From Bactericera cockerelli (taxonomy: Eukaryota; Arthropoda; Insecta; Hemiptera; Triozidae): a stretch of DNA of 64,000 nucleotides. This document shows positions 6,960-57,935 of this stretch, piece by piece (position 1 is the stretch's first letter; every line of letters starts with the position of its first letter). The stretch is from positions 21,368,202 through 21,432,201 of the forward strand of contig CM044964.1 of assembly GCA_024516035.1 (NCBI GenBank), read 5' to 3'. The notes beneath the pieces were generated by a model that made no database searches, was not told where the DNA came from, and saw nothing but the letters and a program-made list of their open reading frames with translations. Position numbers and translations under genes: made by a program.

Positions 6960-7378
6960 TACATAAGATCATAATGATTTCTTAAGTAAGGAATACTGAG
7001 AGTAATAACGTCAATGGTCTGTCAATTCGGGGATTCCCAGTTAGCAATGAAGTAGGTAAAGTACTAGAGGTAAATGTCAACATTCTCAAGGTCGAAGAGA
7101 AGTGGGTTAAAGTCGAAATATGTAAAATAGTTTATTTGATTTTTTTTTCTGGTAAATTTGGTATAGACATGTTGAAAAAACGGAAAAATTAATATCGATA
7201 ATCATAGACAATTTATTTGCTTTAACAATAATGAATGTGTATCTCGAAAAACGATCTACATACGAGTAATATGTTACAAATTCTGGAAATCGGTTTTAAT
7301 TGAACATAATTATTATCTGAGGTTTTATAAGCATACATGACATGACTTCAATTTTTTTTATTTATAAAAATGTTTATT
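6960..7378. other. No supported feature
   Basis: AT-rich DNA with short homopolymer runs. I see no long ORF, RNA gene or recognisable repeat here. Confidence 0.5.
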
Positions 7379-7381
7379 ATA

Positions 7382-7546
7382 GCCAGCTTCCATGGCGTGA
7401 CGGTTGTGACTACTGCCCATAGTCCAGAGATCCCGAGTTCGATCCCCGGTTGGGGCAAACTTTTAGAAAAAAATTCTGTTACCTCCAAATACATGAGGCT
7501 GGTATTTCCGGTCCTACCCAGGCTAATTGAGGTTAATTTGGGTCAC
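7382..7546 (+). mobile_element. SINE-G copy (tRNA head), 3' truncated
   Basis: GCCAGCTTCCATGGCGTGAC (A box), GAGTTCGATCCCCGG (B box), then TGAGGCTGGTATTTCCGG and CCTACCCAGGCTAATTGAGG. It breaks off inside the shared body at GGGTCACTG. Confidence 0.8.
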
Positions 7547-7899: not shown

Positions 7900-8285
7900 T
7901 TCTCACTCCGTCCGTCAATCACCCGGAGTTGAGGTCAGACCATTCTCTACCCAAAAAAGACAACGGTATGTTTGAAATATTTCGGTATGTGTGCTGGTGA
8001 GGCGAGTATATCTAGGAAGACCTAATATTTCGGTATGTGTGGAGTGGAAAGACCTATCTATCTTATAGTATATAAATGAGAATCTCTCATATATGAGGAT
8101 CTAACGGTGTCGAACGCTTTGAATAGGCTAGCCCAGTGCAGGTGATGTAATGGTGTTTGAATAGTGTGGCCAGAGTAGACTCCGAGATGCCTTACCTGCC
8201 CATAGGTAACCTACTTGCTGAGATGATAGTGGCCTTGGTTATTGGTCCTGGGTTCGAAATCCGTACAAATAGAATATAATATTAA
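7900..8285. other. Unassigned intergenic stretch with a tRNA-like motif
   Basis: Contains a short internal repeat (ATTTCGGTATGTGTG twice near 7979 and 8027). A B-box-like GGGTTCGAAATCC near 8250 follows AGATGATAGTGGCCTTGG, possibly an eroded SINE head. Nothing else is supported. Confidence 0.3.
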
Positions 8286-8607
8286 AATTATATTCAAAAT
8301 TCAATTCAATTTTATTTTATTGTAATATGATTTTACAAAGGTTGGCATAACATAATGCGAAAATACAACTTTTTTTCTTAGAATTTTACAAACATAAATT
8401 ACAATTAATACATAATAGCTAAAAAAATAAATAGCAGTAGATATTATATAATAGTTCAAACAAAAATTATTTAACCTTCAAAAAGAGAGAGAAAAGAAAA
8501 TACAAGATTTACTTATAAAATAAATCCACATATACACATGTAAGCTTAATTAATTTTTTAAATATAGATAATTATTTTTCAACTAACCTTCGTTAGTAGG
8601 GCAAAGC

Positions 8608-11600
8608 TCAATGGCTGTTTAATGACAATAATGCTAAATTTACTTCACAAGCTGATTGGAAGAAAGAAGTATATTTTCTAAGTTCAGTAGGGCTAGGATG
8701 TGCGAGAAATTCCACAAAAATATCTAGACTTAAATGTGATCTGTTCCAATTTTTCTGCCTGAGGTTACCAAAGAAAGGACACTGACAGAAAAAATGAATC
8801 ATGGTGTCAGGGAGGTTTTCCTCGCACAAATTGCAGAACTGACCTCGGTAGAAAGCTAGCTCACTATCTCTAAACTTTAACTTCCCAAATCCCTCACAGG
8901 ATAAGCGCAGCCGGGCTAGGAATCTTATTTCGCTGCATGAAAATGACTCACTAAAATAGATAGCAGCAGATGGGTTTTGACTTATGTATGACTTATATAG
9001 AGGGTTATATTTGGAGTTATTTATCTTTGTCTGGTCTTCCTCCTTAAGGATGGAGCGGTAAGAAATCAAAATATTATCCATATTATCTTTTAGTGCTTGA
9101 GGATTTAGATCATCTAAGAGATGGCTAAAGCCCGTCATAGTGAGGTAATCCTTAAGTTGGAGGCACCAGTTATATTTTACAATGGAATTTGACGTACGTG
9201 ATAAAAAATAGTCATAGCAAACTCTAGGGAAACGATCGCTATTCATAGAGGCAAGTTTCAGCCACCAGTTTAGTGTTCCTTTTAACCATAATAACTTAAT
9301 GTTGACAGTAGTGAATTCTCGTCTAATGAAATGATTCGGAGTATTAGGAGGTAGAAAAAGGAGGGACTTATAATAGCGGACCTGGATTTTTTCCATCTCT
9401 GTAAGATAGCGGAAGCCCCATATTTCTGCTGCATATAGGGTGGTTGCTGACGCAACACTTTCAAATAGTTTTTCCCATGAAATCAGATTGAAAACTTTAG
9501 AATTTAAAATAATTTGCCTTATTCTATTATTTGCTAGAACCCCTTTTCTAATTGAATCTTCTGCAGCAGAGAGAAATAAACCAGATGAGGAAAAAGTGAT
9601 ACCTAAGTATTTAAATTTACTTACTATCTCTAGAGGAGTACCATTATAGTTAAATTTACAATCTTTACCGATCCGTCCTCCCCTTCGGCATACCATCATC
9701 TTAGATTTGGCAATGTTAACCTCCAGTTTGTTAACCGTGCTATATTGATGTAGAATATCAAGTTTTTTCTGCATATCCTGAATGGATTCCGACATTAAAA
9801 CCAAGTCATCTGCATAAAATAATACCTGTATGATTTTATTGCCAATTTTTATACCCTCTGTATTTTGAAGATGGGATTCAAAGTCTGCCACAAATATGTC
9901 GAAGAGGAGGGGGGATAAGGTATCCCCCTGCAAGATTCCGTTAGTTATATTAATTTCATCAGTTAGAAGATTATTTAATTTCACCCTAAAATGAGCCTGA
10001 AAGTAGAGGGAGGATATTATGTTTATGATTTTGTCACTAACTCCTATATGTTTTAGCTTGCAAAACAACAATGTATGATTAATTTGGTCAAAACAAAATT
10101 TAAAATCCACGAACCCTAGGTAGAGTTTCCCTCTTGGTTTTTCCAACATGTAATTTACACACGAACTCAGAGTAAATATATGATCAATGCAGCCCCTGCC
10201 TCTTCGAAAACCTGCCTGATTTTCAGGTAAAATATTATTATTCTCACAGAATCTCTCTAATCTTAAATAGATTACATATGTGAAAATTTTAACAATAGTA
10301 TTTATAAGAGATACCCCTCTGTAATTACTAATGCAGGATTTATCTCCTTTTTTAAATATTAAAAACATAATTATTTCAGGCCAAGAAGACGGGAGACCTC
10401 CCCTGAAATTGAAGATATCATTAAATAGGTCGACCGTGTTTTGACGCCAACAGTCGGGAAGATGTTTATATACTTCGTATGGGAGACCATCACTGCCCGC
10501 CGCTTTTCCGTTTGAGCATAATTTTAAAACCAGGTTTAACTCCGACATTACGATTGGATCATCTAGTGAAGGGACCGATGTATACTGAGACAGGTGATCA
10601 AACATCAAACTGGGAGGGTTGAAAGGTTCATTCATTGAGAAAAGTATTGAGAAATGCTGATATACTTGTTCGCTGCTTAGAGTGACTTTTTCATTTTGAT
10701 TTGACTTGAAGAACCCAACAGCTTTCCAGAAACCGCGCGGGTCTTTAACATTTGCCAATTTAGTTTGTAGATTTTGTATATATTTTTTCTTTTTCTCTTC
10801 CAGAAGAATTTTATAAATTTTTTTCTTTGCTAAAAACTGAGTGACATCCTCTGGAATGGAGAAAAGCTTTCTTTTACATTTGCGATATATATTTCTCATC
10901 TCGTATTTCGCGGATTTACAGGCTGCATCGAACCAAGGATTTTTTTTAGAAATGTAAATAACTTCTCGATCTTGACCAATTATATTTATTTCTTTTGCTG
11001 CTGAAATAACTGAATTTTTTAAATATTCAAATCTCTCTTCTGTTGAAGAACCGCTCAAGTTGTAGCATTTGTATATTTTAAGCATTTCATGTACGTAATT
11101 ATTTACTGTCTCTTTAGACCATTCTATTTTTCGGATTCTTTCTGATTCCTGCTCTTGAACTTTTTTTTTAGTTTTATTCATGTATGACAATTTTTGTAGT
11201 TGTACCTTAATAGGAAAATGATCTGATGTAAGGAACTCATTTGAAACGGAGAAATCCGAGATCTGATCAATGGCAGTTAGGTTAACCCAAACTGAATCTG
11301 GGGTACTCTTACCTGTGTGCGTGATACACGTGAACTGACCCAACATATCACTAGCCGATCTACCGTTTAAAACTACGAAGCCTGTGTTTTCCATCATTTT
11401 TAAAAGCGTCTTGCCCTGTGTGTTTTCTTGTAGATCCAAACTTGATCGGGAGTGAGAAAGGTGAGTGCCAGTACCGGCGAATTCCTCCCAGTCACATTGG
11501 TTTTTCAGGCCAATTCTGCCATTAAAGTCTCCTCCTATTATTATGGTGAAATTGTAATAAGATTGATTAATGTCTTGTATGTCAGCTTCAAGTTCTTGAA

Positions 11601-12035
11601 ATAGAGATATATTGTTCTTTTCTTCTCTCTCTGGTCTCTTTTTTTCACCATCGGGTTTTATATACACGCAGCCAATAATTAAATTTAACTTAGTTAAACA
11701 GATAAATATCCAGTTATGGCTTTTCTTAATAACGCTTGCCTCATAACAGTTTCTATAAGCTATAATTATGCCCCCACTGAAGCGACCTCTTTTGTTAAAC
11801 CTTATCGCTTCTGATTGAGTTATTAAATAATCTGGGAATGTTTTTGTAAAAGAGCGAAGCCAGGTCTCACACATGCATATAAAGTCAGTTTCTAATGACA
11901 TGAATTTGTCTAAAGCTGAATAAAAATTATTAGGGCCGTTACAGTTTAGCCATACAATGCTCAGATGTGAATTAGAAATGGCACCAGGCTCTCTTAACCT
12001 AGAGCCACCTCCTGTAGGAAGTGGCTCATTTAATC
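8608..12035 (-). CDS. LINE ORF2: EEP endonuclease-reverse transcriptase-CCHC (frameshift-fused)
   Basis: This is the retrotransposon polymerase; it nicks target DNA and primes reverse transcription of its own RNA. The first AUG is at 11901 and gives 1097 residues. Numbered from it: EEP endonuclease residues 1-235 with CETWL (E12), GGDFN (123-127) and SDHFPI (226-231, catalytic His). RT spans about 440-800 with motif A VDFKFCFDQ (D599), motif B GILQGDTLSP (655-664) and motif C YADD (696-699). A zinc knuckle CNLC-x9-H-x4-C lies at 1023-1041. The frame is open upstream of that AUG to the ORF1 slippery site, with no other AUG. The upstream codons read SIVWLNCNGPNN, EEP motif I with its catalytic-type Asn. 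An AUG-11901 start would therefore delete part of the nuclease, which argues for a -1 frameshift fusion to ORF1. No stops or frameshifts occur within the domains. Confidence 0.9.
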
Positions 12036-12042
12036 GTTTTTT
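12002..12042 (-). promoter_or_regulatory. Predicted -1 ribosomal frameshift signal between ORF1 and ORF2
   Basis: On the minus strand the ORF1 frame reads CCA AAA AAC GAT TAA. A AAA AAC (12036-12042) is a canonical X XXY YYZ slippery heptamer. After an 8-nt spacer (12028-12035, containing the ORF1 UAA) comes a stem: GAGCCACTTCCT pairs with AGGAGGTGGCTC (12002-12027), 12 complementary positions with one G-U wobble, realistically 11 bp with a UACA loop. Slipping back one base gives CGA TTA AAT GAG and an open frame into ORF2. The parts and spacing match known viral and retroelement signals; activity is inferred. Confidence 0.75.
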
Positions 12043-12812
12043 GGAGTAGTATTACTAATTATTGGTGGTGTGGTAGTGATACTATCCATGGAATCAAATT
12101 CCTCTGAGTCCGTGTGGAATACATTTTCATTTGTTTCCATACTAGCTACTCGCTTTCTATCAGCAATAGGAGTGGAAGGAGATATAGAGAGAGCTCTTTT
12201 ATTTGACAATGTATTAGCTGTTTTAAGAGGTGTTTGATTTTCTCTTACGATTAATTTGCCGGATCTGATGACTGCATATTTTCCTTGTTTCCGGTATTCG
12301 TGCATTTGAGGGAGCAGCTCCTTTTCTCTTTGTTGAACTTCAGGTGAAGAGTCCTCGCGAATGAAAATCTTTTCTTTCTTCAACTTGCTTCCATTTTTCA
12401 ATAAATCATATTTACGTCTTTCAGTCGTTAAACCAATTAGAATAGGTCTGGGAGACTTTTTGCTTTTTAAACGCCTAATAATGTCCAGCTCTGTTAATGA
12501 GAATGAGGGCACCTCCAATTTTTGTGTTATGAGATATAAAATTTTGACTTCTAGATCGGAAAACTTTTCGCTTGGATCTTCTTTGAGGCCAAAAATTAAG
12601 AGATTCTTCCTCCTTCTGTTAGCATCCAAGTAACTAAGTTCTGTGGAATGTTTATTCACGTCAAGTTGAATGGATTGAAGAGAATTATGAATGGAATCTA
12701 GCTTAGCATTAATTTTTCCATCACTTTCAAGAGAGTCTTTTTGTAATTTTTTGATGCCAGAAATTTCTTGGAAAAGCTTTTCCATTGTAAATTCCTCTGA
12801 TTTATTTGCCAT
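12030..12812 (-). CDS. LINE ORF1: coiled-coil/RRM-like RNA-binding protein
   Basis: The likely start is ATG at 12812 (MANKSEEFTM, context ATCATGG), giving 260 residues. The frame stays open to 12857, but only with a TTG and a hydrophobic leader, so I reject that start. Residues 10-65 have heptad-like spacing (a coiled coil for oligomerisation). Residues 67-150 (RRRKNLLIFGLKEDP through IIRRLKSK to KKEKIFIRED) resemble the RRM-like core of L1-type ORF1 proteins. Residues 160-192 (QREKELLPQMHEYRKQGKYA then IRSGKLIVRE) resemble the C-terminal RNA-binding domain. The last 60 residues are Ser/Thr-rich and probably disordered. The family binds its own RNA and acts as a nucleic-acid chaperone; that role is inferred. 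The ORF ends within 4 codons of the frameshift heptamer. Confidence 0.8.
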   Translation of the reverse strand: MANKSEEFTMEKLFQEISGIKKLQKDSLESDGKINAKLDSIHNSLQSIQLDVNKHSTELSYLDANRRRKNLLIFGLKEDPSEKFSDLEVKILYLITQKLEVPSFSLTELDIIRRLKSKKSPRPILIGLTTERRKYDLLKNGSKLKKEKIFIREDSSPEVQQREKELLPQMHEYRKQGKYAVIRSGKLIVRENQTPLKTANTLSNKRALSISPSTPIADRKRVASMETNENVFHTDSEEFDSMDSITTTPPIISNTTPKND

Positions 12813-12871
12813 GATCAAAAATAATAATAGGTAAATAGTTATAATAAAAAACCTCAAGATGTGGTTACGAG

Positions 12872-14262
12872 AGAGAATTTTTAATTTATATAGGTAATTT
12901 AAATTCCCTTTATTTCCAAAAATTGATGTGGCAACAATGAAATGACGACGTTAGGACTGGTTTATGATCTAATTCTTATCTCTGATTGGTTCCATGATTA
13001 GCTTGACCAAGCGCTGCTTCCTGATTGGTGCTCAACTACACGTGAAAGTTTTGAGGTTATAATATATTAGTAGTTGCTATGGAAACAATCACAGGTTTAA
13101 ACGTAATTTGATAAAGATGGAGTCCAAAACCACTGACTGTTAAAAGTTCAATAAATTGGTTTCTGAGAAGCTTTGTTCTTTATAATTATAAATTTTATTT
13201 TAGGATGAACATGAGCTTAAATTGGAAAAAATGTAGTTCAAAATTAAGCAAAATTTTAGCGAAATTAACTGAGTTTAGTTATAGGTAAGCTTTTAAATGA
13301 AATTTATATGACTTTGTAAATACACATAAAATATTTGATTCGTGAGGTTTCTTAGGCTTACTTTCAACAGGCACTATGATCACAATATGCGTTTAGTGAA
13401 AAAATATTAAATAAAACGATAAAATACAACTTTTCTTTGATCCATGGTTATTTTCGATACATTAATATACACTTAAAACATAAAAACACACACTGAAAAA
13501 CGATTTTTAATTAGAATTATCAAATTAAAGAGGAGCTATCTTAAAGTCTTTCTTTACTTAACAAAGCGACGTTGCCAACCATTATAATCAATCAATTAAA
13601 ATTATATTTAACCCGGGGTTTTTTAATGTTAAATTTACTGTTAGTTTATTTAAAATACAAATTCGTTTAACTCATAATAATAAAACACCTCCCGCATATC
13701 CGCTGTCCTCTTCATTGTTCCCAACATACTCGCCACATTTCCGACCTGAACAGCCAAACTTATTCTTTGCATTAGGTATGATTTTAATATTATGTCTACG
13801 GAGTGATACACTCTTACAATAAATTATATTCTTAAATAGATATTCATGTACATCTAATACAACTTCTCAATTTTCTGTTTTTACTGATTAAAATAGAAAG
13901 GTCAGTTGATGGATTAAAATAGAAACCGGCTCTCTTTACTTTTTCTAATTTTATAGGATAGGCAAAAAACATATTGAACGATAACCTTTTAATTAATGTA
14001 TGTGAATGTGGAGAGAGAACAGTTTGAAAATGAACGCATATTTTACTACAGAATTACTATGGGAGAGAGTAGGTTTTGAGAAGTAATGTTTTTTTCAGTC
14101 TATGCGACTTTAAAAAGAGATTCCAGGGGTACCACAACCTAATTTTCAATTTTTTTGGAGAGAGCCGGTTTTGATAATAGGGCCCTCATATCTTTCTTTG
14201 TATAATAAATATAGTTGAAATGGGTTTTCGTAGAGATAATACTAATTGCCCCTTTAAAAGAA
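12872..14262. other. Non-coding stretch upstream of the LINE
   Basis: AT-rich with no ORF I can support. It may hold the LINE 5' UTR/promoter near its left edge; GATTGGTT occurs at 12984 and GATTGGTG at 13022. No repeat copy elsewhere in the window marks the boundary. Confidence 0.4.
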
Positions 14263-29845: not shown

Positions 29846-29952
29846 ATCGTCAAAGAAAATAGTAAATAAAAAATAAAATGAAACTTCGATCAAAAATCGA
29901 CCTGAAACAGCGTCTCAGCCTGACGGTGCAGAGGGGGAATGCAGCAAGTATA

Positions 29953-30817
29953 CAGGGTGGGGCAAAAGTCTGGAAACCCCTGAATAACTTTCGAATGGCT
30001 TCTTCGGTAAAATTAAAATTTTGTACGGTAAACCGGGCTAATAAGACCTCCTTTTAGAGTCGGGTCGATTTTTGTTACTGGCCCCCATGTCGGGGCCAGG
30101 GGGGCCAACTTCATTTTTTTAAATACGAACCCCCACCTTGCGATACATTTTTAAAAAGGTCTTTAAATAACAAATACATTAGTGCAAATTTTATTTTTTT
30201 AATATTAACTGTTTGCAAATGGCGTCCAACTTTCTGTATGCAGTAAAGTCTGGAAACCCCTGAATATCTTTCGAAATGGCTTTCTCAGTAAATTTAAAAT
30301 TGTGTACGGTAATCCTCGGTAATTAGACCTTATATTAGAATGGGACCGATTTTTTTTTACCGGCCCCCATGTCGGGGCCAGGGAGGCCAACATCATTTTT
30401 TTTAAATACAAAACCCCACCTTGCGATACATTTTTGGAAAGGTCTAATTACCCCGACTTACCGTGCACAATTTTAAATTTACTAAGTAAGCCCTTTCAAA
30501 AGATATTCAGGGGTTTCCAGACTTTACTGCATATACAAAGTTGGACGCCATTTGCAAACAGTTAATATTAAAAAAATAAAATTTGCACCAATGTATTTCT
30601 TATTTAAAGACATTTCCAAAAATGTATCGCAAGGTGGGGGTTCGTATTTAAAAAAATGAAGTTGGCCCCCCTGGCCCCGACATGGGGACCGGTAACAAAA
30701 ATCGACCCCACTCTAGAAGAAGGTCTTATTAGCCCGGTTTACCTTACAAAATTTTAATTTTACCGAAGAAGCCATTCGAAAGTTATTCAGGGGTTTCCAG
30801 ACTTTTGCCCCACCCTG
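29953..30817. mobile_element. 865-bp nested palindromic TIR element
   Basis: TA-flanked. The ends are CAGGGTGGGGCAAAAGTCTG and its complement. The two outer arms (29953-30240, 30530-30817) are 288 bp each and near-identical inverted copies. The centre (30241-30529) is another element of the same family, with ends CAGTAAAGTCTGGAAACCCC and about 90-bp terminal inverted repeats. Arms and centre share a core with GGCCCCCATGTCGGGGCCAG. No coding capacity. TA flanks and a CAGGGTG end suggest a Tc1/mariner-type MITE. Confidence 0.85.
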
Positions 30818-30819
30818 TA

Positions 30820-30900
30820 TATGCTTTCGGCTCTTACCTTAGCTGAGTTTGTAGAGGTCTACAATCTATAATTTTATTATTTTTTTATGTACTTTTTAAT
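30820..30900 (-). mobile_element. Retroposon 3' end fragment
   Basis: ATATGCTTTCGGCTCTTACC, TTAGCTGAGTTTGTAGA and CTACAATCTATAATTTTATT are repeated in reverse complement at 36548-36640 (CTACAACCTCAGCTGAGGGA, GCCGAAAGCATATTATATTT). The copy is cut by the palindrome to its left. Confidence 0.5.
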
Positions 30901-33514: not shown

Positions 33515-33613
33515 GACCGACCTCAGTAGCTTGATTGTCAATACGGCGAAGTCGTAACCAGAGGTCGGTGGTTCGAATCCCAAGTTTAGCAAAGATTTAG
33601 AAAAGCGTAATTG
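33515..33613 (+). mobile_element. SINE-B, 3' truncated
   Basis: ACCGACCTCAGTAGCTTGAT, GGTCGGTGGTTCGAATCCCA (B box), GATTTAGAAAAGCG. Stops where a SINE-C begins. Confidence 0.75.
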
Positions 33614-44583: not shown

Positions 44584-44909
44584 GCTTTACATAGCAAGGA
44601 GAGGTTACCATAGCAACGAAGGGTTACTATAGACTATAGCAACGAGAGGTTCCCATAGCAACGCGGGGTTACAATAGCAACGAGGGGTTACCAGAGCAAC
44701 GCGGGGTTACCATAGCAATGAGGGGTTACCATAGCAACGCGGGGTTACCAGAGCAACGCGGGGTTACCATAGCAACGACGGGTTACCATAGCAACGAGGG
44801 GTTACCATAGCAACGATTGGTTACCATAGCAACGAGGGGTTACCATATCAACGGGGGGTTACTATATCAACGAGGGGTTACCATAGCAACGAGTTGTTAC
44901 CAGAACAAC
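44584..44909 (+). repeat. 19-bp minisatellite of RFX X-box-like motifs
   Basis: About 16 units of GGTTACCATAGCAACGAGG, period 19 bp. At least seven contain GTTACCATAGCAAC exactly, an imperfect inverted repeat that fits the X-box consensus RYYNYYATRRNRAC bound by RFX transcription factors. Others differ at one base (CCAGAG, CATATC). One unit has a short insertion (TATAGACTATAG). The motif is the most conserved part of the unit by eye; the 5-base spacer varies more. Confidence 0.9.
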
Positions 44910-44939
44910 GTGCTAAGACTGTGGTAAACTAATCAAACC

Positions 44940-45025
44940 ATTGAAACAAGTATGTATAAGTTTAAAAACAAGTATGTATAAGTTTATTTAGACTGTCAGC
45001 GCAAGATAGGTAGTCCCAATATTCC
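44940..45025 (-). mobile_element. Element I 3' end
   Basis: AAGTATGTATAAGTTTAAAA duplicated, then TTTATTTAGACTGTCAGCGC and AAGATAGGTAGTCCCAATAT. Lies immediately beside the X-box array. Confidence 0.6.
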
Positions 45026-45616: not shown

Positions 45617-45899
45617 AAAAAACAAAACTATCCACCGAATTCGAACCCGCAGCCTCTTGACCAGAAGACAACTTTGTGAACTCCTGGACACGTAGATCTT
45701 CTAGTCGGAGAGATATGACACTGCTGCGCCCATAAGAAACTGTTATACATTCGAATGCTAATCTCTTACTATTGTAATATTATTGCCCATACAGTTATTA
45801 TTATTTAAATGATCTTGCTCCATTCTGTCATAGCTCATTGTCATGCCCATAATATTATTAAAATCTTATCCAGGTCGATGACAATGACTCTGGGTTTGA

Positions 45900-46052
45900 G
45901 GGGAAATGGGTGTAGTGGGGGAAAATGGGTATAGTGGGGGAAAATGGGTACAGTGGGGTAAAATGAGTATAGTGGGAGAAAATGGGTACAGCGGGGGAAA
46001 ATGGGTAAAGTGGGGGAAAATGAGTATAGTGGGGGAAAGTGGGTATATTGTG
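45900..46052 (+). repeat. 19-bp G-rich minisatellite, about eight units
   Basis: Unit AAAATGGGTATAGTGGGGG with variants. The G-runs on the plus strand could form G-quadruplexes. Overlapping Gly/Trp-rich ORFs are by-products. Confidence 0.95.
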
Positions 46053-46469
46053 AATTTTTCAACGTTAAAAGAAACGTTAAAATATAAAACGAAGTAAATT
46101 TATAGCTCGCCCATTTGTAGTTTGATACTTTCCTTTCAAAAGTTTTAGTTCTGAAACTTAATAGTCATACCTCGAAAGTAGAAGCAAAGTATTTTTCACC
46201 ACAATCTTCTTATCCCACTCTTTCCTTTCCCTTCCCTCTTTCTATCCTAAAATATAATAAATAAACAAAATTTGGAGCATGACCATAAACCTATCATGTC
46301 CTCTCACAACATTGTTAAGTCTTCAAGATAGGAGAAATAAGCAAGTTTAAGTTTAATTGGTAAACTTTTGCATAATTCTATTGATTCTCCTGAGCTCCTT
46401 TGCAAAACTAAATCAGAGTCAACTGTAAAAACACTGCCAATTATGGACACAATACTTCCTCGTGATTGT

Positions 46470-49237: not shown

Positions 49238-49409
49238 GACCAGCCTCACTAGCTTGATCGATAAGGCGGCGGACTTGTAACCTGGAGGTCGGTGGTTCAA
49301 GTCCCGGTTTCAGCATAGAGATTTAGTAAAGCGAGTTTTAGTAGTTGTGATATCGCGATTGTGATTGACACACATAATATGATAACTTTAACTTTTTTTT
49401 TTTTTTTTT
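49238..49409 (+). mobile_element. SINE-B, full length, near consensus
   Basis: CAGCCTCACTAGCTTGATCG, GGTCGGTGGTTCAAGTCCCG (intact B box), TTTAGTAGTTGTGATATCGC, ACATAATATGATAACTTTAA, T-run. Young-looking. Confidence 0.85.
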
Positions 49410-50716: not shown

Positions 50717-50905
50717 TAAGACCTCAGTAGTTTGATCGATAAGTTGAAAGGGAGATTTGGGGATTGTGAGAGTGAGAAAGTTCTCCGTAATGAGGCTCCT
50801 GACAGTGGTTCTATATTGGTACAAACCGACCTCAGTAGCTTGATCGATAAGACGGCGGCCTTGTAACCTAGAGATCGGTGGTTCAAGTCCCGAGTTAAAA
50901 AAATA
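50717..50905 (+). mobile_element. Two SINE-B head fragments around a MITE-O fragment
   Basis: ACCTCAGTAGTTTGATCGAT at 50720, then GGGAGATTTGGGGATTGTGA (O-like), then a second head CGACCTCAGTAGCTTGATCG at 50829 with B box GTGGTTCAAGTCCCGAG. It looks like MITE-O inserted in a SINE-B, or target duplication. Confidence 0.55.
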
Positions 50906-56891: not shown

Positions 56892-57129
56892 GCCAGCCTC
56901 CGTGGCGTAACGGTTGTGACTACTGCCCGTAGTCCAGAGATCCTGAGTTCGATCCCCGGTCGGATCAGACTTTTCACACAGAAAATTCTGTTCCCTCCGT
57001 ATAATATGTGAGGCTGGCATTTCCGGCCCTACCCAGGCTGGCTGAGGTTATTGTGGGTAGCTGGTACGATTCCCAGCAAATGGAGGGTAAAACCCCCGTC
57101 CTAATCCAGGACGTTAAATCAAATAAAAA
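56892..57129 (+). mobile_element. SINE-G, full length, reference copy
   Basis: tRNA-like head GCCAGCCTCCGTGGCGTAAC (A box), GAGTTCGATCCCCGGTCGG (B box). Linker CACACAGAAAATTCTGTTCC. Body TGAGGCTGGCATTTCCGGCC, CTACCCAGGCTGGCTGAGGT, GGGTAGCTGGTACGATTCCC, TGGAGGGTAAAACCCCCGTC. 3' end ACGTTAAATCAAATAAAAAT. From CCCAGGCTGG onward it matches SINE-5S. Confidence 0.9.
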
Positions 57130-57191
57130 TGTGCCAAAACCAACCAATCACAACCATGAAGTGAACAACGTCGACTCTGCTTGAGCGGGAT

Positions 57192-57505
57192 AAGATAGAG
57201 TAATAGAAGAAGACAGATAAGACAGAGTAAAAGAAGAAGACAGATAAGACAGAGTAAAGGAAGAAGACAGATAAGACAGAGTAAAGGAAGAAGACAGATA
57301 AGACAGAGTAAAAGAATAAGACAGATAAGACAGAGTAAAGGAAGAAGACAGATAAGACAGAGTAAAGGAAGAAGACAGATAAGACAGAGTAAAGGAAGAA
57401 GACAGATAAGACAGAGTAAAAGAATAAGACAGATAAGACAGAGTAAAGGAAGAAGACAGATAAGACAGAGTAAAAGAAGAAGACAGATAAGACAGAGTAA
57501 AAGGT
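57192..57505 (-). repeat. 27-bp minisatellite, about eleven units
   Basis: Unit AAGACAGATAAGACAGAGTA plus AAGGAAG, period 27 bp, so every frame stays open. Minus-strand ORFs made of repeated CLICLLPLL or LSYLSSSFT are by-products with no start context or domain. Confidence 0.95.
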
Positions 57506-57509
57506 GATA

Positions 57510-57935
57510 TTCGCGAATCAAAACTTGAAAAAAAAAGAAGCCGACATTGCAGCACCGGAATCAAAGCATTGATACAACAATACCTGTCTATCCAAATAAA
57601 ACAAACATTGTAAAGATTCCTACCCAATTATAATAAAGGATTCAGAGTTCAAATACCTTTGCAAAACAGGTACCACACTCACTTCCTTTATTGGAAGAGG
57701 TTACACAACCTTTGCAAAAAGAAATCCATTAGCTACTCGTAACATACACAATTACACATGAAATTCCTAAACATATTATTTTGTGGCAGTCAAGCATTTT
57801 GCGGCCAAATCAGACAAAAAATATACTATCCTAAAATTTAATTGCTTACAAACCAATCTGAATGTTAGGATCATCAAATCATCCACATGAAATAATTGCA
57901 AAATTCATATATCTATTTATTTATAGTACAAAAGC
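57510..57935. other. No supported feature
   Basis: AT-rich, apparently unique sequence. Nothing recognised. Confidence 0.4.

Follow-up and report, generated by a model that had tools for sequence, protein, structure and literature searches.

How a long interspersed nuclear element (LINE) with two open reading frames (ORFs) expresses the second of them is an old question, so far answered mainly through reinitiation models. Recoding has also been considered: in Paramecium, +1 frameshifting or reinitiation was suggested for ORF2 of LINE groups 1 and 2, and readthrough for group 3 (PMC5405496; this and the other articles cited by PMC number are represented here by excerpts). Programmed −1 sites are described with 5–9-nt spacers and with heptamers of the kinds found below (PMC5009743), and UAG_CAR_YYA (type I) and UGA_CUA (type II) are viral readthrough contexts (PMC3542737). 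Here, we analyzed the ORF1–ORF2 junction of a LINE on the minus strand of a 64,000-nt stretch of Bactericera cockerelli contig CM044964.1 (the window; all coordinates are positions within it) and searched the 565-Mb assembly for copies and relatives. The sequence makes it very probable that the mRNA of this element is translated in the manner of retroviral gag-pol, a −1 slip giving an ORF1–ORF2 fusion, and that the same logic extends across a LINE lineage.

ORF1 ends in CCA AAA AAC GAT TAA, which places the slippery heptamer A_AAA_AAC (12036–12042; minus strand, as for all features of the junction) in ORF1 phase. An 8-nt spacer (GATTAAAT, 12028–12035) holds the ORF1 stop TAA (12032–12030) and is followed at 12002–12027 by a putative stimulatory hairpin, identified by folding and a stem scan, with 11 bp including one G-U and a TACA loop. 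Bounded on its 5′ side by a TAA that ends at 12052, three codons before the heptamer, the −1 frame remains open for 1142 codons beyond the shift, encoding EEP and reverse transcriptase (RT) domains up to a stop that ends at 8608. Its AUG-less start (11902–12051) contains EEP motif I (WLNCNG), and the first AUG in the ORF2 frame, at 11901, lies 45 codons past the shift and downstream of this motif. The features expected of a −1 frameshift site, namely an in-phase X_XXY_YYZ within the overlap, a 5–9-nt spacer and a long open −1 frame, are all present. A sequence-only reading of this DNA had named the heptamer in ORF1 phase, the 8-nt spacer enclosing the stop, a stem of 11–12 bp with one wobble and a UACA loop, and the position of EEP motif I ahead of the AUG; each was found again, the stem settling at 11 bp.

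In the proposed mechanism, most ribosomes would terminate ORF1 at the TAA. Some would pause at the hairpin with AAA in the P site and AAC in the A site, slip one base back on A_AAA_AAC, evade the stop and translate on through EEP and RT into an ORF1–ORF2 fusion. The slippage, its rate (the “controlled ratio” of the sequence-only reading) and the fate or later cleavage of the fusion are what we infer from this anatomy.

The two strands of the window hold 1506 strict heptamers in any phase (777 and 729 per strand), and only one, the junction’s own, has a GC-rich stem of ≥10 bp (loop 3–8) starting 5–9 nt downstream. No such heptamer–stem pair arose when one strand of the 64 kb was dinucleotide-shuffled 20 times, the shuffles themselves holding fewer heptamers (a mean of 417 per strand). 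The 91-nt junction folded with −25.3 kcal/mol (z −2.4; 3 of 200 shuffles equally good), and the 50 nt from the fifth nucleotide after the heptamer gave a fold z of −4.8. The exact 43-nt junction sequence occurs once in the window.

Comparison of copies and families within the genome supports the fusion proposed by the sequence-only reading, and the observations it had named as refuting were for the most part not made. A DNA search recovered eight copies of the junction region, the window copy counted, and all eight have the heptamer in phase and ORF2 in −1. Protein searches yielded at least 147 matches to ORF1 and at least 76 to ORF2, and junctions were read in 28 resolved families. Among the 24 other families with ORF2 in −1, an in-phase heptamer is present in 21 under the strict definition and in 23 under the lenient one; the −1 arrangement is shared by 57 of 63 copies across 25 families. 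Between junction fragments of different families, blastn alignments extend over 87 nt at most, and ORF2 identity to the window family over about 400–480 aa is 50–56% for B, C and D and 29–32% for E, F, G, H and V. Families G and P have two in-phase heptamers each. Representatives were picked for uninterrupted geometry (L087 rather than L069/L086 for R, L105 rather than L102 for Q), and the 63-copy count includes all copies. Two of the copies that pass the geometric test, L020 and L072, have an upstream indel by which ORF1 is already in frame with ORF2; family 2 (L093/L094) and L067 were excluded from the −1 count, L099 stops short of its junction, and L029 is interrupted there. Conservation of heptamer phase, the check proposed earlier from the sight of one element, holds well beyond that element: judging from these sequences, the signal is characteristic of a lineage, and in some of its members ORF1 and ORF2 lie in a single frame across a stop.

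Individual loci showed further variation. Within one LINE family, a second A run just 3′ of the heptamer varies in length, L087/L088 and L069/L086 being one A apart, which puts ORF2 either in −1 or, behind a UGA, in frame 0. L067 has stops in all three frames before its EEP-RT ORF. At G000:C3:41624862, G000:C3:6642861 and G000:C5:18278655, the ORF1 matches lie inside open frames of 1105–1444 codons and are possible natural ORF1–ORF2 fusions; the first of these (L072) has a T run one T longer than in L030/L031.

Hairpins were compared by folding 50 nt from the fifth nucleotide after the heptamer at 25 sites in 23 families (X was too short, and Y has no heptamer). The fold z was below −2 at 11 sites (A–F, J–M, R), compared with 5.4% of 93 control windows. 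Stems start 5–8 nt past the heptamer in A–F and J–P, but at 10 nt in D and, with two outer pairs counted, at 4 nt in J; Q has an imperfect stem and R a different one. Many families carry a hairpin of different spelling at the same spacing as that of the window element. For the GGGT-type stem of nine families (E, J–Q), 98.6% of cells pair, and both sides are changed in four of eight pairs, a value reached by 1 of 500 shuffles. None of the 500 shuffles (mean 0.272) or of the slid versions (≤0.229) attained its covariation score of 0.392. The signal is weaker for further pair types (30 of 500 shuffles), and RNAalifold returned the same helix with one extra pair. Searching the whole genome for a heptamer combined with TAA/TAG and the GGGT-type stem gave six matches, and the reversed control gave none; three matches lie directly behind ORF1 matches, and three have no counterpart among the ORF1 matches listed. 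The heptamer and hairpin are retained where the protein linker is not. Both conservation and covariation are therefore found, and the stem covariation called for by the sequence-only reading stands for compensatory changes in the GGGT-type hairpins of nine other families, the window’s own stem type having been outside the test.

Several points weigh against frameshifting as a general reading. The 28 families read are part of the ORF1 families among the at least 147 matches. The tail probability of heptamer conservation, 1.6e-26, overstates significance, because the families are related by descent. Family Y has a −1 ORF2 without a canonical heptamer, R and X have heptamers with a final G, outside the strict set, and small indels break the geometry in copies L052, L056, L102, L069 and L086. 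The stems drawn for N, O, P and Q have site z values above −2 (−1.2, −1.1, −0.4 and −0.4, respectively), and the nine-family hairpin was derived from folds of the same sequences used to test covariation, so that result is somewhat favoured. Families G, H, I, S, T, U, V and W gave no significant local stem, the sequence examined being 50 nt long, or 110 nt in the case of G, H and V. Loss of heptamer or stem had been named in advance as evidence against the fusion; the heptamer is kept throughout the window family, and a significant local stem is what these eight −1 families did not show. Such families could rely on the heptamer by itself, on a pseudoknot or on pairing at a distance.

Restart on ORF2 after the ORF1 stop, by termination–reinitiation or unconventional initiation as in SART1 (UAAUG) or mammalian LINE-1 (L1), would make the hairpin a structure required for coupling of the SART1 type, and SART1 coupling likewise uses structure 3′ of the stop (PMC5972666). 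The window copy does carry TAAATG at its ORF1 stop. This ATG is in frame 0, is followed by a stop after 11 codons and is missing from copy L012, and the window element has no overlapping stop–start of the SART1 type in the ORF2 frame. An AUG-led ORF2 with EEP motif I in relatives, the other observation that the sequence-only reading would have held against itself, is absent from 21 of 25 representatives, whose open ORF2 frame has no AUG before motif I (in Q and U the frame reaches the fragment end); such an AUG is present in B, C, H and K, plus one G copy. Family H, which has no clear hairpin, may reinitiate, because its ATGA overlaps the ORF1 stop, and this too counts against frameshifting there. 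TAG CAA AGA ATG immediately 5′ of EEP motif I in family 2 (L093/L094) points to reinitiation or readthrough. Reinitiation leaves the in-phase heptamers of several types unexplained, and we consider it unlikely for the window element.

Transcriptional slippage on the A run, in which a mixed mRNA pool would include some transcripts in the shifted frame, fits the six consecutive A at the site in 18 of 25 families and the one-A difference in the neighbouring A run between L069/L086 and L087/L088. Yet the families with A_AAT_TTT, G_GGT_TTT and T_TTA_AAG have no six-letter run at the site, and slippage requires neither codon phase nor hairpin, whereas the observed heptamers keep codon phase and ribosomal spacing is seen for many hairpins; this explanation appears very improbable. 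Even less credible is a homopolymer indel, by decay or assembly error, that broke a once-fused ORF. Indels do lie close to the site in a few copies, and ORF1 of L020 and L072 is already in frame with ORF2, but the arrangement is common to the whole window family and to most copies in the 25 families, and heptamer and hairpin outlast the protein linker. Heptamer conservation across families and the copy counts contradict such an artefact. Ribosomal −1 frameshifting is the reading we retain.

Two relatives keep both ORFs in the same frame. In family Z (L079–L082, L085), ORF1, TGA CTA G and ORF2 are in-frame in five of five copies, which count as one event because they are near-identical. In family 1 (L097/L101, one copy read), ORF1 and ORF2 share a frame across TAG CAA CCA. 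By their stop contexts, the two are candidates for type II (UGA_CUA) and type I (UAG_CAR_YYA) readthrough, respectively. The downstream stem-loop usual for type II readthrough has no extended equivalent in family Z or 1 (z −0.45 to +0.5).

Across the lineage, the means of recoding, be it the type of heptamer, the stimulator or readthrough of a single stop, would have been replaced while the fusion product was kept. The devices concerned comprise five or more types of heptamer, T_TTT_TTC among them, hairpins that were replaced, the double heptamers of G and P, UGA_CUAG and UAG_CAA_CCA. We lean towards the view that a large LINE lineage adopted the gag-pol strategy and swapped the device repeatedly, and such swapping suggests that the target of selection is the fusion with its ratio, and not a particular signal. 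In a lineage with canonical −1 sites, ribosomes would set the ORF1:ORF2 ratio and an RNA-binding protein would be covalently linked to the polymerase, which could bear on particle assembly and cis preference. These related elements also form a natural series, with frameshift heptamers, hairpins and readthrough contexts taking one another’s place.

The element itself is an EEP-type (APE) LINE, with RT and EEP domains and a target-site duplication. Its apparently full-length insertion spans 8295–13594 (minus strand), as bracketed by the 14-bp direct repeat AATATAATTTTAAT on its 5′ side (13595–13608) and 3′ side (8281–8294); this repeat has exactly two perfect copies in the window and none in 100 shuffles. 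The seven other copies match the window LINE at 96–99% identity over the stretches available. Their 5′ starts fall at 13580–13588 in six and at 13070 in one, and the 3′ ends of the four copies covering that end at 8274–8301 in three and at 8383 in one, in agreement with the window LINE within ~20 nt at most ends. ORF1 (12030–12812, minus strand; 260 aa, ATG at 12812) shows a weak likeness to coiled coils in its N-terminal part (weak PDB matches) and a central part conserved across families; a Pfam search of ORF1 gave no family match. ORF2, the predicted −1 extension of ORF1 (8608–12051, minus strand), matches RVT_1 (E 1.2e-36) and Exo_endo_phos_2 (E 4.4e-07), and its best matches of known structure include R2 and L1 ORF2p. 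An ORF2 protein scan of viral contigs gave 7 stretches fitting the pattern, and an RT alignment scan gave 79 stretches in prokaryote genome contigs and 124 in viral contigs; tblastn confirmed none of them. Phage records contained no match.

Elsewhere in the window, an inverted repeat (29949–30331 / 30439–30821) has 383-nt arms that are 94% complementary and 107 nt apart, and may be a foldback-like element or an inverted duplication. Dispersed repeats with tRNA-like stretches (GGTTCAAGTCCCG, GGTTCGAATCCC) at 7373–7464, 33516–33583, 49239–49306, 50825–50892 and other positions are probably several families of short interspersed nuclear elements. A tandem array of 27-nt units (57108–57582) holds two open frames on the minus strand, and two separate arrays (44595–44967 and 45878–46067) each have a 19-nt spacing.

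Among the papers listed from the open full-text PMC literature, none concerns −1 signals joining LINE ORF1 and ORF2; subscription papers and Repbase notes lie outside this set and may include single elements proposed to use a −1 shift. The papers that come nearest treat the Paramecium LINEs (PMC5405496), HeT-A and TART (PMC5009743) and reinitiation in SART1 and L1 (PMC5972666). A term search of PMC2881922, PMC4700185, PMC7175516 and PMC2861651 found nothing on −1 signals joining LINE ORFs.

With retroviral gag-pol and RNA virus −1 frameshifting, the window element shares the in-phase X_XXY_YYZ, the 5–9-nt spacer, the downstream stem and a −1 polymerase without an early AUG; it differs in that the host is an EEP-type LINE with a simple predicted stem-loop, and in that heptamers and stimulators vary between related families. 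Like SART1 and mammalian LINE-1, it is a two-ORF LINE with a downstream ORF after the ORF1 stop, and SART1 also has a downstream structure (PMC5972666), but the window element is without a stop–start in the ORF2 frame and would yield a fusion rather than ORF2 protein on its own. Paramecium LINEs likewise have recoding suggested as a route to ORF2, although the shift there is +1 rather than −1, was derived from consensus frames and belongs to a separate ciliate clade, with neither heptamer nor stem among the features reported in the excerpts (PMC5405496). Frameshifting is also discussed for the telomeric non-long-terminal-repeat elements HeT-A and TART of Drosophila; in HeT-A, an element without RT, it concerns gag itself, and for TART the polyprotein route is given as unknown (PMC5009743). 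The viral type I and type II readthrough contexts (PMC3542737) recur between in-frame ORF1 and ORF2 of two related families, here in a LINE and without an extended downstream stem in either.
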